Below, piece by piece: positions 1-40,720 of a stretch of DNA of 64,000 nucleotides. The stretch spans positions 1 through 64,000 of the forward strand of contig DATDFQ010000059.1 of assembly GCA_036522515.1 (NCBI GenBank), written 5' to 3'. Source of the stretch: Bacteroidota bacterium (GTDB lineage: Bacteria; Bacteroidota; Ignavibacteria; UBA10030; SZUA-254). Numbering within the stretch: the first letter of the stretch is position 1; each line of letters opens with the position of its first letter. The notes beneath the pieces are model-generated. The model was not told where the DNA came from. It worked only from the letters and a program-made list of their open reading frames with translations, and did no database searches. A program made the translations under genes and the position numbers.

Positions 1-1752
1 CTCAGGCCCGGTCAGGCCGATCTGTTTCCCCGCGAGCTCACCCACTTCGGCAAAGTGCCCGGCGGAATCCGCGAGCGACCGCTCGATAAGATCTCCCAGA
101 TCTTTCTTCAGGTCCGCAGGCAACTCCTTGTCGACCGCCCACACGGCGAAGACGAACGGCATTTTTTTCCAATCATACCACTCCTTCGCCAGATCGAACA
201 CGAGCTCGAAGCCTTCGAGCCCGAACTTATTCCTGCGAAGCGCCTCGTCGCCGATCAGAAGAACCGCATCATACCCCGAACAATCGTTGACTCCCCCGTG
301 CATCCGCTCGAAGGTCGCCCGAACCTCATACTTTCTCTCGAGCAGGACCTGAAGAAGCCTGACCGAGGTCGCGGTCTCGTTCGTAATCCCGATTCGTTTC
401 CCTTGTAAATCGCGCCAGCCGTGATTGGAAAAAAGCATCACGCTCTTCACCTGATCGCGTGTGGCGATGCACCAGTTCAGGAGTTGCAGGCGCCCGGCCT
501 GCCCGAAGTAATCCATGAGGGAGAAGGGGCCTGCGATGATTTGCCCTTTCTCCTGAAGGAGGCCCATGCGCCGCGGGTTGACGGGAAGCGTCTTAAAGGC
601 ATGCGGCTCGAAGCGACGGTAGAACGGGACGGAATTCAGGTACGGGATCTTTCCCACGACGTTTTCGGCATACAGATTCAGGGGATTATAATAGACGTCG
701 CGCTCGACCGGAATTTTCCCCGCATCCCGTATGATTTTGATGATCTGGTCCTTGGCGAGCATCATGGGACTCACCGCCCCGGCGTCGTGTGCGATCCGCT
801 CCTGGCCGACCGTACCGTCGATGTCGTCCGCGCCGAAGTTCAGCGCGATCGACGCGACTTCTTCGGTGAGCATGACCCAGTACGCCTTGATGTGCGGGAA
901 ATTATCGAGCATGAGCCGCGAGATCGCGATCGTCTTGAGATCGTCGATGGCGGACGTGAACCGGTGCCGCGGCTTGATGCCGGTATCGCCCGGCTGGAAC
1001 GCGAGCGGGATAAATGTGAGGAATCCGCCCGTCTCATCCTGTGCCTCGCGCAGCTTGATCATGTGGATGATCCGCTCTTCGAGCGTCTCGATGTGGCCGT
1101 AGAGCATCGTGCTGTTCGTCGGAATGCCGAGCCGGTGCGCCGTCTTGTGGACTTCGAACCATGTTTTCGCGCCGATCTTCTGGTTGAAAATCAGTTTTCG
1201 CACCCGCTCCGAGAACACTTCCGCGCCGCCCCCGGGCATCGTCCTCAGACCGGCATCCTTCAGTTGACGCAATACTTCCTCGATCGAAAGCTTGAATTTC
1301 TTGTGGAAGAAATCGATCTCAACGGCTGTAAAAGCCTTTACGTCGAGATTGGGAAATTTTTCATGAATCGACCTCACGATGTCGAGGTAGCGTTCCCACG
1401 GCCAGTCGGCGGGCATCCCGCCGGTGATGTGCACTTCGTGGATGTCGGGGGTCAGCTTCGAGAGGATTTCCTCGGTGGCCATTTCGTACGCTTCGGGGTC
1501 GCCCTTCTTGACCGCGAAGTCGCAGAACTTGCAGGAGAGGATGCAGATGTTCGTGTGCTCGATCTTCTGGTTCAGGACAAAATAGACGGCGTCGCCGCTC
1601 TTCTGCTGCTGGACGAAGTGGGCCATCTTTCCGAGCGAGATGAGGTCGTTCGTGCGGTACATCGTGAGGCCGTCTTCGAGGGAGAGCCGCTCGCCCCGGC
1701 GGACACGCTCCCAGATGGGGAGAAGCTGTTTGTCCTGGAATGCAATCGTCAT
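1..1752 (-). CDS. Aminofutalosine synthase (MqnE) fused to chorismate dehydratase (MqnA), 3' end beyond window
   Basis: One uninterrupted frame of at least 584 codons from ATG 1752 to the window edge. Residues 1-364 are a radical SAM aminofutalosine synthase: the iron-sulfur motif CILSCKFC gives C70, C74 and C77, followed by EVHITGG, the MPGGGAE motif, FEVHKTAHRLG and NSTMLYGHIE. This domain ends at the family's usual PVERD tail. From about residue 365, with no stop and no Met, the frame continues as MqnA: VVGKIPYLNSVPFY, then AGPFSLMDYF, ITNETATSVRLL and MPFVFAVW. MqnA converts chorismate to 3-[(1-carboxyvinyl)oxy]benzoate and MqnE joins that product to the adenosyl moiety of SAM, so the fusion joins steps 1 and 2 of the futalosine menaquinone pathway. 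It is the last visible gene of the mqnP-ubiX-ubiD operon. A GTG at 657 could restart translation, but MqnE has no stop before it. Confidence 0.9.
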   Translation of the reverse strand, partial: MTIAFQDKQLLPIWERVRRGERLSLEDGLTMYRTNDLISLGKMAHFVQQQKSGDAVYFVLNQKIEHTNICILSCKFCDFAVKKGDPEAYEMATEEILSKLTPDIHEVHITGGMPADWPWERYLDIVRSIHEKFPNLDVKAFTAVEIDFFHKKFKLSIEEVLRQLKDAGLRTMPGGGAEVFSERVRKLIFNQKIGAKTWFEVHKTAHRLGIPTNSTMLYGHIETLEERIIHMIKLREAQDETGGFLTFIPLAFQPGDTGIKPRHRFTSAIDDLKTIAISRLMLDNFPHIKAYWVMLTEEVASIALNFGADDIDGTVGQERIAHDAGAVSPMMLAKDQIIKIIRDAGKIPVERDVYYNPLNLYAENVVGKIPYLNSVPFYRRFEPHAFKTLPVNPRRMGLLQEKGQIIAGPFSLMDYFGQAGRLQLLNWCIATRDQVKSVMLFSNHGWRDLQGKRIGITNETATSVRLLQVLLERKYEVRATFERMHGGVNDCSGYDAVLLIGDEALRRNKFGLEGFELVFDLAKEWYDWKKMPFVFAVWAVDKELPADLKKDLGDLIERSLADSAGHFAEVGELAGKQIGLTGPE

Positions 1753-1824: not shown

Positions 1825-3642
1825 TTACTTCCAAATCTTTCCCCACTTTTCGTCGACCCGCCTGACAATCTCGTCCTTCATCACGAGCGGTTCGGGGTAT
1901 CCGGGTTTCCAGGTGGCATCGATTCCCATGACTCCTTTATGGATGGGACAGATGCCCTCGAGCCTGCTTTCGGTGAAAATGACGTCGCGTTCGCAGTCAA
2001 ACCTGGTAAATATCCCCCAAATATAACTCTCTCTGTCGTGAATATCCACATCGGGGCTGACGGCCGCGATCATTTTGAGCGATGCGAGCTCAGGCATGCC
2101 GACGAGTTTTCGAAGGACCTGCATCCCCGCTGTGGGACCGGGTTCCGGAGTCCCAACTCCCGGCAGATTGGAGAGAGCCGATTCGACTTTCACTATCAAG
2201 AGCGTCTCATCGATGATATCGCAGTCGAGAATGCGGCGATCCAGGGCTGCGAGTTCCGCGCGCGTCGGCGTCACCCTCTTCTCCTCAGCCCCCGATCTTC
2301 GCGAAGACTTCTTCGTCGCGTCGAGTATCATCTTGCTCCCCAGATTCATTTTGTAGCTCGTAAAATCGAGCGTATCGAGCGGGACATTTGGGATCATGAT
2401 GAAATCAAAATGCGGATCGAAATTTTCCCGCATCTCCCGCACCACCGCGTGCCAGTCGCGCACGTCGACGCCCGGCGAGACGGTGACAAGGCACTTCGTC
2501 AGCGAGAGCTGATCGGTGCCCATGAGTCCGAGCGCAGCTTTCATCGCTTCTTTGTGATACCGCTCGTCGATGGAGACAACAAGCAGGTTGTGAAAACCTG
2601 CTTCATAGTACGCCCAGAGGTCCTGCACTTCTTTATGGATCAGCTTGACCAGCCGTCCGAGAAGCTGCTGCGTCGCATCTCCCAAAAACTTGTCTTCCAT
2701 CGGGGGCTTGCCGACGACGATCGCGGGATAAATCGGATTCCGCCGGCGCGTGATTGCCCGGAGATGGAAGACCGGGAATTCTGCCGCGCCGGAGTAGTGG
2801 CCGAAATGATCGCCGAAGGGACCCTCCATGCGCCGCTCTCCGGCGGGAACCACTCCCTCCAGTATAAACTCGGCGGAGGCAGGAACTGAAATCGAAACCG
2901 ATTTGCCGGGTCTGAATTCAACGCGCCGGTTCTGCAAAAAACCGGCGAACATCGCCTCGTCCAATCCTTCCGGAAGCGGCGCCACCGTCGCGATGAGCAA
3001 TGCGGGATCTGTCCCGAGGGCGACCGCGAGCTCGAGGTCTCTTCCCATCTTCCCGGCCCGGGCGTAATGGAACCCGCCCCCTTTATGAATTTGCCAGTGC
3101 ATTCCGGTTGAAGCCTTGTCATAGACCTGAAGCCGGTAGATTCCCATATTCCGTTTGCCGTCGCGGGGGTCGGAGGTGATGACCTGACCGTACGTGATAA
3201 AGCGGCCGCCGTCGTTCGGCCAGCAGACTTGAACCGGCAGCCGGCCGAGATCGGGGGCTTCCACCATCTGTTGGGAGACTCCGGACGAGACGTTTTTTGG
3301 CCTCGCGTTGAAAAAACGCCGAAGGATCGGTTTGTTGCCGAGAAGCCCGTCGAGCGTCGGCGGAAACGCGCTTTCGAGAAATCCGATCAGCTCTTCGCCG
3401 ATCTCGTCCGGATTCCTTCCGAGCGCGAGTTCGATGCGGCGGGCGCTTGCGAAGTGATTGACGATGAGAGGAAATTCCGAGCCCTTCGGGTGCTCGACCA
3501 ACAGGGCCGGTTTGCCCTCCCGTAGGGCGCGTGTCGAAACTTCGGTCAGCTCGAGGGCGGGGTCGATCTCAACCTGGGTCCGGTGGAGTTCGCCGGCGGC
3601 GGTCAACGCCGCCAGGTAACCGCGAAAGTCAGGAGAGGGCAT
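1825..3642 (-). CDS. ubiD: UbiD-family prenyl-FMN decarboxylase, menaquinone type (MqnL-like)
   Basis: This is a 605-residue UbiD-family decarboxylase. Such enzymes use prenylated FMN, made by UbiX, to decarboxylate aromatic acids. Visible family motifs are NMGIYRLQVYD, MHWQIHKGGG, the EGPFGDHFGHYSG active-site segment and PIYPAIVVGKPPMED. Its place between the ubiX/mqnP genes and mqnE/mqnA points to decarboxylation of the prenylated 1,4-dihydroxy-6-naphthoate intermediate (the step called MqnL), not ubiquinone synthesis. It is longer than the roughly 490 residues of proteobacterial UbiD, as is common for menaquinone-type members. ATG 3642 lies 29 bases after the ubiX stop. Confidence 0.9.
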   Translation of the reverse strand: MPSPDFRGYLAALTAAGELHRTQVEIDPALELTEVSTRALREGKPALLVEHPKGSEFPLIVNHFASARRIELALGRNPDEIGEELIGFLESAFPPTLDGLLGNKPILRRFFNARPKNVSSGVSQQMVEAPDLGRLPVQVCWPNDGGRFITYGQVITSDPRDGKRNMGIYRLQVYDKASTGMHWQIHKGGGFHYARAGKMGRDLELAVALGTDPALLIATVAPLPEGLDEAMFAGFLQNRRVEFRPGKSVSISVPASAEFILEGVVPAGERRMEGPFGDHFGHYSGAAEFPVFHLRAITRRRNPIYPAIVVGKPPMEDKFLGDATQQLLGRLVKLIHKEVQDLWAYYEAGFHNLLVVSIDERYHKEAMKAALGLMGTDQLSLTKCLVTVSPGVDVRDWHAVVREMRENFDPHFDFIMIPNVPLDTLDFTSYKMNLGSKMILDATKKSSRRSGAEEKRVTPTRAELAALDRRILDCDIIDETLLIVKVESALSNLPGVGTPEPGPTAGMQVLRKLVGMPELASLKMIAAVSPDVDIHDRESYIWGIFTRFDCERDVIFTESRLEGICPIHKGVMGIDATWKPGYPEPLVMKDEIVRRVDEKWGKIWK

Positions 3643-3671
3643 TCATGATTCCGGCGAGAGCCTCTGCCGCA

Positions 3672-4223
3672 TCACTCCAGTTCCTTGGCGCGCCATCCCC
3701 GGGATTCCCGGATTCCGGCCGCGCCGAGGAGTTTGTCGGTGAACGCGCCGACATATTCCTCCACCGTCTTGGGGACAAAGTAGAGCGGGGGAGCGATCGG
3801 CATGATCACCGCCCCGTCGCGCGAGAGCCGCGTGCACTGTTCGAGAGCGATCGTCGAGAGGGGAGTCTCGCGGATGCAGAGAATCAGCTTGAAGCGTTCC
3901 TTCAGCGCCACCTGCGCGGTGCGTGTGATCAGCGTGTCGCCGATTCCCGAGGCGATCTTGCCGAGCGTGGAGGTCGAGCAGGGGATAATGACGAACACGT
4001 CGAACCGGTTCGAGCCGGACGCGAGGGGAGCGGCGAGGTCGTCGTTCGCGAACTGCCGTTTGACGTACGGCTGCAGCTCCTTCTCGGAGATGTTCAGCTC
4101 GTCTTTCAGGAGCGCTTTCCCCCATTTGCTCACGACCAGAAATTTGTCGGGGGGGCACTTTTTCAGAAAGTCGAGCGCATAGACTGCTCCCGACGAACCT
4201 GTTATCCCGACGACGATTTTCAC
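3672..4223 (-). CDS. ubiX: Flavin prenyltransferase UbiX (MqnM-like)
   Basis: A 183-residue flavin prenyltransferase that adds dimethylallyl phosphate to FMN, giving the prenyl-FMN cofactor used by the UbiD protein next door. The N-terminal KIVVGITGSSGAVYA is the FMN-binding glycine motif. The IIPCSTSTLGKIASGIGD segment and RETPLS motif are family hallmarks. The start is GTG 4223: its GTGA overlaps the TGA of mqnP, and the family's KIVVGITG begins right after it. A longer upstream frame would add 50 residues of Arg-rich sequence that is antisense-like and not part of the family. Confidence 0.92.
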   Translation of the reverse strand: MKIVVGITGSSGAVYALDFLKKCPPDKFLVVSKWGKALLKDELNISEKELQPYVKRQFANDDLAAPLASGSNRFDVFVIIPCSTSTLGKIASGIGDTLITRTAQVALKERFKLILCIRETPLSTIALEQCTRLSRDGAVIMPIAPPLYFVPKTVEEYVGAFTDKLLGAAGIRESRGWRAKELE

Positions 4224-5074
4224 CGGGCGACGGCTCCGGTGACGATCATCGCGAAGACGAGAAATCCGAGGCCGGCGTTGATTTTGAAAAAGGCGAGTTC
4301 GACGTTCGAAGACTTGCGCTGTTCGATCCAGAGGAGGATCCCGGTAAGAAGAAGAAAGGGGACCGCATACCACGTGCGGATCGTGGTGAAGAAAAGGAGC
4401 GCCAGGCAGGTGAACGCCACCACGTGGAGCACCGACGACCAGAGGAGCGCCTTCCTTTTTCCGAACCGGGAAACGAAGGAATAGAGGTTTTCGCGGCGGT
4501 CAAATTCCTCATCGAGAGTTGCGTAGATGATATCGAAGCCGGCGCCCCAGAAGACCGTGAACAGGCACAAGAGGATCGCGGGGGGGAGATTCTCGAACGA
4601 GGGGGAGGCGGCGAACCAGCCCCCGAGAGGCGCCATCGCCATGCCGAGGCCAACGCCGAAGTGGGAGAAAGCCGTAAATCGCTTCATGTAAGGATAAATC
4701 GCAAAAATAAGGAGCGGTATCGGCGAAAGAGCGAGGCAGAACGTCGATATCAACGCCGCCGAGGTCAGATAGACGGCGATGCCGAGGGCCAGCACGATAA
4801 TCGCCTCGCCAAGCTTCATTCTCCCGCTCGGTAATTCGCGCACTACCGTCCGCGGGTTTCGGCCGTCGATGCGCCGGTCGATGATTCGGTTGAGAGCGAA
4901 CGCCGCTGTCCGGGCCCCGATCGCGCTTGTAAGGACAAGGAGAAGGATTCTCAGGGAGGGGAATCCGTGAATTCCGAGCGCCAGACCGCTATAAATCAGA
5001 GGAAGCGTAAAAAGGGTGTGCTCGATCTTTACGAAACTAAGGAACCTGTTGGTCTGGAAGATGGTTTGCTTCAC
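4220..5074 (-). CDS. mqnP: UbiA-family prenyltransferase, menaquinone (MqnP)
   Basis: A 284-residue polytopic membrane prenyltransferase. The first Asp-rich motif is NRIIDRRIDGRNPRT (N62, D66, D70) and the second is DIIYATLDEEFDRREN (D181, D188, D192); in this family they bind Mg-prenyl diphosphate. Eight or nine hydrophobic segments are visible. With UbiX, UbiD and the mqnE/mqnA gene in the same operon it is best read as the enzyme that prenylates the naphthoate headgroup of the futalosine route. It is first in the operon, with a promoter at 5117-5145, and its stop overlaps the ubiX start. Confidence 0.9.
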   Translation of the reverse strand: MKQTIFQTNRFLSFVKIEHTLFTLPLIYSGLALGIHGFPSLRILLLVLTSAIGARTAAFALNRIIDRRIDGRNPRTVVRELPSGRMKLGEAIIVLALGIAVYLTSAALISTFCLALSPIPLLIFAIYPYMKRFTAFSHFGVGLGMAMAPLGGWFAASPSFENLPPAILLCLFTVFWGAGFDIIYATLDEEFDRRENLYSFVSRFGKRKALLWSSVLHVVAFTCLALLFFTTIRTWYAVPFLLLTGILLWIEQRKSSNVELAFFKINAGLGFLVFAMIVTGAVAR

Positions 5075-9412: not shown

Positions 9413-9476
9413 TTGTCATTCTGAGGAGCGTAGCGACGAAGAATCTCCGAGATCCTTCGCTTCGCTCAGGATGACA
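9413..9476. repeat. Intergenic repeat family 1, two facing arms
   Basis: Two opposed arms (GTCATTCTGAGGAGCG... and ...CTTCGCTCAGGATGAC) fold into one long imperfect hairpin between surA and moxR. It could end or attenuate transcription after surA. Confidence 0.8.
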
Positions 9477-22081: not shown

Positions 22082-22171
22082 TTGTCATCCTGAAGGAGCG
22101 TAGCGACCGAAGGATCTGGCTTTTTGCCATTCGGACGGACGGAGATCCTTCGCTGCGCTCAGGATGACAAT
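22082..22171. repeat. Intergenic repeat family 1, two facing arms
   Basis: Opposed arms TTGTCATCCTGAAGGAGCG and CGCTGCGCTCAGGATGACAA flank about 30 bases of unrelated sequence, after the response regulator. A large cruciform or terminator-like hairpin is possible. Confidence 0.8.
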
Positions 22172-40639: not shown

Positions 40640-40720
40640 TGTCATCCTGAGCGTAGCGAAGGATCTCAATCCTTCGAGGCGCGAGATCCTTCGGTCGCTG
40701 CGCTCCCTCAGGATGACAAC
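40640..40720. repeat. Intergenic repeat family 1, two facing arms
   Basis: Opposed arms TGTCATCCTGAGCGTAGCG and CGCTGCGCTCCCTCAGGATG, with an inner ATCTCAATCCTTCGAGGC segment, lie between two divergent promoters. Confidence 0.85.

Follow-up and report, generated by a model that had tools for sequence, protein, structure and literature searches.

A conserved one-chain fusion of the futalosine-pathway enzymes MqnE and MqnA in Ignavibacteria and some neighbouring bacteria

Introduction

Can the first two enzymes of the futalosine route, an alternative pathway to menaquinone (vitamin K2), be made as one protein when they are ordinarily two? The question is raised by a gene at the start of a 64,000-nucleotide stretch of Ignavibacteria DNA, here called the window. 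The two steps concerned, dehydration by MqnA and radical addition by MqnE, are established for stand-alone enzymes. The original prediction, made from the window alone, was that MqnE passes into MqnA in this gene with neither a stop nor a Met at the junction; it also held that the product of MqnA is the co-substrate of MqnE, which agrees with established knowledge of the pathway. The early steps of the futalosine pathway are a target for drugs, with MqnE inhibitors that act on Helicobacter pylori (PMC13280913); the same paper also names the enzymes of both early steps.

Results and Discussion

A single uninterrupted frame

On the minus strand of the window, a frame opening with the ATG at position 1752 runs to position 1 as 584 codons free of stops. 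In its translation the end of MqnE, PVERDVYYNPLNLYAEN, continues in frame into the start of MqnA, VVGKIPYLNSVPFY. The predicted passage from one enzyme into the other is thereby borne out, and the junction contains no ATG, though V366 is encoded by GTG. Position 1 is the first base of contig C59, so that the gene is cut by the contig end. The missing end lies on contig C31, whose final 141 bases exactly repeat the first 141 of the window. The joined sequence encodes a complete protein of 623 amino acids; it supplies the stop and also the MqnA C-terminus that the original prediction had proposed to look for left of position 1. The final A of this stop, TAA, is the A of the mqnC start codon ATG.

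Given that the window begins at a contig end within the gene, an artefact of assembly or sequencing that joined two genes has to be considered. The junction, however, is over 650 bases away from the contig end, and dozens of independent assemblies carry the same uninterrupted frame. Because these genomes share the frame, a sequencing error hiding a stop or frameshift is excluded, and we rejected the assembly artefact, whose probability we regard as negligible.

The same order is represented by 59 relatives from six families (G001-G059). By our count the frame is open across the junction in 47 of them; in the remaining 12 nothing crosses it, and several of these are without any MqnE. Two separate mqnE and mqnA genes, an arrangement among close relatives that would have spoken against the prediction, occur in none of the 59. 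Complete orthologues number 29 and are 618-631 amino acids long. Within the same class, 18 further genomes carry the fusion (families f13, f15 and f16) and 19 have a stand-alone MqnE (f12 and f20).

An alignment of the junction was used to scan 84,980 GTDB species, and the best 80 loci by similarity were taken, a selection by which distant fusions could be missed. Of these best 80 loci, 66 are one-frame fusions with the junction in question, as expected of a real fusion, and the other 14 are unfused. Among the best 80, the fused loci are labelled Ignavibacteria, Bacteroidota, Chlorobi or Kapaibacterium with five exceptions, which are as follows: a Syntrophaceae MAG (L129), a Deltaproteobacteria MAG (L130), two KSB1 MAGs (L135 and L145, the latter with a frame break within MqnE) and the unclassified L099. 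The genes neighbouring L129 are unlike the Ignavibacteria operon, and L129 and L130 are sisters in the tree. While MAG contamination is possible, the L129 neighbourhood fits transfer better than mis-binning, and the fused genes of L129, L130, L135 and L145 suggest transfer out of Ignavibacteria-type bacteria. The one-chain MqnE-MqnA is a real, long-conserved fusion, maintained in Ignavibacteria and some neighbouring bacteria and probably of a single origin.

One relative (L032, approximately 2880-4320, minus strand; G002:C179) carries, upstream of its intact fused gene, tandem partial 5' copies of it. Between them is a short gene that by eye resembles those of NYN-domain proteins.

Domains and catalytic residues

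The N-terminal domain (residues 1-360; 673..1752, minus strand) is assigned to the radical-SAM enzyme MqnE, aminofutalosine synthase. Residues 13-357 match NCBIfam TIGR03700 over positions 1-350 of 351 with 472.6 bits (cut-off 434.55), and Radical_SAM and CofH_C domains are recognized; the MqnC model scores below its own cut-off on the fused protein. The CxxxCxxC cluster motif of the radical-SAM domain, C70-C74-C77 (1522..1545, minus strand), is invariant in an alignment of 49 fusions.

The C-terminal domain is assigned to MqnA, chorismate dehydratase. Residues 365-584 of 623 are encoded in the window (1..660, minus strand), the last 39 residues and the stop on contig C31 (L005), and residues 366-575 match PF02621 with 133.5 bits (cut-off 26). 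The active-site residues were identified from chains in the PDB in which Streptomyces MqnA has designed changes, namely Asn to Asp in 7ywc, Asn to Ser in 7an7 and Ser to Ala in 7an8. By alignment with these chains they correspond to Asn373 (634..636, minus strand) and Ser437 (442..444, minus strand), both invariant in 49/49 aligned fusions.

Both halves and the junction are under purifying selection: comparisons with L131 and L127 give a dN/dS of approximately 0.04-0.15, rough values given the near-saturation of synonymous sites. Of the two halves, MqnA is evolving faster. A degenerate MqnA half was considered and rejected.

Predicted structure and the junction

The structure was modelled for L127, a protein of the same length as that of the window and 83% identical to it (mean pLDDT 87.1, pTM 0.86). 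Residues 1-364 of the model superpose on MqnE 6xi9 (Z 42.1, rmsd 2.2, 348 residues), and residues 361-616 on the SCO4506 structures of MqnA (Z approximately 32, rmsd 2.0-2.3), with a lower Z of 23.2 for MqnD 2czl. The model contains two complete folds without a real linker: the last strand of MqnE leads through a short turn of about four residues (361-364; 661..672, minus strand) into strand 1 of MqnA. No solved structure covering both domains was among the Foldseek and VIA matches listed. Stand-alone MqnE of Pedobacter heparinus (6xi9/6xig; TIGR03700) has the same whole fold and radical-SAM motif at approximately 40% identity, but ends where the fused protein runs on into MqnA. Stand-alone MqnA of Streptomyces (SCO4506, 7ahr) and Deinococcus (DR0370, 2i6e/6o9a) likewise shares the whole fold and the active-site Asn and Ser, but as separate proteins with 24-30% identity.

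The junction has the length found in the window in 51 of 59 fused loci and is longer by 3 residues in seven and by 15 in one. That the two enzymes act consecutively, that nearly all members lack a linker, and that the pTM for the two domains together suggests a defined orientation to each other all speak for a channelling module, in which enolpyruvyl benzoate would be handed from the MqnA half to the MqnE half without release. The few longer junctions, on the other hand, indicate that exact spacing is not essential, and co-regulation by itself could maintain the fusion. We therefore treat channelling as a tentative and rather doubtful reading of the model.

An internal start near the junction might also, or mainly, yield the MqnA half as a protein of its own; an in-frame ATG, GTG or TTG is present there in 39 of 59 members, including the GTG at V366 in the window. 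Yet ATG is found in only 7/59, always within the first MqnA strand, and a Shine-Dalgarno-like stretch precedes just one of 45 such codons. Since the start-like codons are moreover at no single conserved place, we consider an internal start very unlikely.

Operon and pathway context

The operon of the window runs ubiA, ubiX, ubiD and fused mqnEA, followed by mqnC on contig C31. Its first gene encodes a UbiA-type, MqnP-like prenyltransferase (4220..5074, minus strand; TIGR01475 above cut-off). Next are genes for a UbiX-type flavin prenyltransferase (3672..4223, minus strand; TIGR00421 above cut-off from residue 52 of a longer open reading frame, with the GTG that overlaps the ubiA stop as its assumed start) and a UbiD-type menaquinone decarboxylase (1825..3642, minus strand; TIGR03701, 502.7 bits, cut-off 495.9). 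The mqnC product matches TIGR03699 with 448.9 bits (cut-off 428.1), and an MqnD-type gene is located on the same small contig. The full order seen most often in the 66 fused loci is ubiA-ubiX-ubiD-mqnE-mqnA-mqnC, with mqnD often on the opposite strand, and contig ends may account for shorter lists.

The window's genome contains MqnC, MqnD and the late genes of the futalosine set but gave no match for MenD. Because MenD is absent, the futalosine route is likely the source of menaquinone in this organism. No clear MqnB or MTAN-type nucleosidase for removal of the purine base was found genome-wide. The only two PF01048 proteins (L162 and L163) both score best as purine-nucleoside phosphorylases, one of them scoring below the PNPH equivalog cut-off, and a phosphorylase may carry out the base-removal step.

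A dispersed intergenic repeat, CTGAGCGAAGCGAAGGATC, has four copies in the window at up to two mismatches (1797-1815, 9451-9469, 22144-22162 and 40647-40665) and none in shuffles. One copy lies between ubiD and the fused gene.

A second MqnA-like gene beside rplS

Three PF02621 genes are present in the window's genome, encoding MqnD, the fused domain and a stand-alone MqnA-like protein. The last is located outside the window (L006:1720-2511; G000:C56:296219-297010, plus strand), directly behind rimM-trmD-rplS, and its family follows rplS in 28/28 loci in which rplS is visible. The tree places this family as the sister group of the intact MqnA that lies close to MqnE in families f12 and f20. 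Conservation of the stand-alone gene throughout the taxonomic order and this kinship with an intact MqnA of the same class would fit an arrangement in which the rplS-linked gene is the chorismate dehydratase and the fused MqnA half has a structural or regulatory role.

Three observations stand against such a division of labour. The catalytic Asn, which the fused half keeps together with the Ser, is found in 0/30 members of the stand-alone family, its place being taken by Tyr or Phe in 27/30, mostly Tyr. The gene also persists in five near-complete genomes (G022, G029, G037, G049 and G052) that have no matches for MqnE, MqnC or MqnD and no MenD above cut-off. Finally, several fused genomes do without it: in those of L083, L129, L130, L135 and L143 the only PF02621 matches are the fused domain and MqnD. 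Dependence on the rplS-linked gene was accordingly rejected, in view of the missing Asn and its absence from several fused genomes, and we consider the arrangement highly improbable.

As the stand-alone protein lacks the Asn, outlasts the pathway genes and is missing from several fused genomes, the fused domain is likely the chorismate dehydratase of the pathway, and the stand-alone gene is probably not a pathway enzyme. The family keeps conserved positions of its own, for example His175 in 29/30, and looks like an ancestral MqnA with a new function. A wider scenario, in which the linker-free chain channels 3-enolpyruvyl benzoate and the displaced native MqnA beside rplS, having lost its Asn, acquired a new, conserved role apart from menaquinone synthesis, seems unlikely to hold in full. 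Tallying stand-alone MqnA or MqnE genes is misleading in Ignavibacteria.

Origin of the fusion

Rokubacteria, Gemmatimonadota, Bacillota and Chloroflexota carry mqnE and mqnA as unfused tandem pairs. In Rokubacteria, Gemmatimonadota and Desulfotomaculia, a single stop separates mqnE from an mqnA that directly continues its frame, and MqnE of the unfused pairs ends at the residue of the fusion junction, for example L148 ...YNVVKIWN*GVMPRVGRIPYLNCEPF. The two genes of the Chloroflexota pairs overlap and are read in different frames. These pairs (L148-L161, from Rokubacteria, Gemmatimonadota, Chloroflexota and Desulfotomaculia) share the gene order of the fusion, and often its frame but for the one stop, while encoding two proteins instead of one. 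They illustrate a possible route to fusion.

In a tree of 44 MqnE rows, the fused sequences form one clade (100/97) that adjoins the pairs of Chloroflexota, Rokubacteria and Gemmatimonadota (100/99), in the trees its closest unfused relatives. A topology that places fused MqnE with its unfused counterparts from the same class is rejected (AU p 0.0045), as is one that places it with every unfused MqnE sampled from its phylum (p 0.0003). Fused MqnA groups with the same outgroups at 100/100, and within that group the single fused clade is weakly supported (59/89). These trees are most simply read as a single origin, with later inheritance and some transfer. From the few outgroups sampled we infer the direction of transfer, with the pair imported from another phylum. 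Such a history would amount to an apparent replacement of native mqnE and mqnA, throughout a lineage, by a fused cassette of the type of another phylum.

A further tandem arrangement was seen within the phylum (L041, G191:C11:335396-337045, family f26), where MqnE is followed by one TGA and then by MqnA in the same frame. This MqnA belongs to a different lineage, so that the pre-fusion arrangement is the same with an MqnA of another type.

Proposed function and comparison with known fusions

We posit that the fused gene encodes one bifunctional enzyme that supplies menaquinone and arose once, through loss of the stop or overlap in a tandem mqnE-mqnA pair, and we hold this to be very probable. 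The C-terminal MqnA half would dehydrate chorismate to 3-enolpyruvyl benzoate, with which the 5'-deoxyadenosyl radical generated in the N-terminal MqnE half would yield aminofutalosine. The ancestral pair would have been of the kind seen in Chloroflexota, Rokubacteria and Gemmatimonadota, and the fused gene would then have been inherited through Ignavibacteria-type lineages in a ubiA-ubiX-ubiD-mqnEA-mqnC operon. The bifunctional reading is favoured by the single frame, matches above cut-off to both families, invariant catalytic residues, purifying selection, the operon and the lack of MenD, as well as by two full folds in one model, unfused pairs that end at the same residue, and the trees. 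The faster MqnA half, the 59/89 support of the MqnA clade, the second MqnA-like gene and the lack of a clear MqnB or MTAN count against it. From sequence and model we infer both activities, translation as a single chain without internal restart, and import from another phylum. With both early enzymes in one natural chain, the protein would be convenient for studying the movement of enolpyruvyl benzoate and for assaying both steps with one protein.

No published description of a fused MqnE-MqnA was found in the open-access literature searched, and a 2014 survey of the futalosine pathway does not mention the fusion. Fusions of enzymes from the same pathway are already known; the MqnE-MqnA variant is apparently new, though prior notice is possible. 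A near parallel is FbiC / CofGH, the bifunctional FO synthase of F420 biosynthesis (NF006687), which is likewise a one-chain fusion within one pathway and has a radical-SAM half of the CofH/MqnE type. It differs in that both halves are radical-SAM domains and serve another pathway, and the window protein scores 247.5 against the NF006687 cut-off of 1018.
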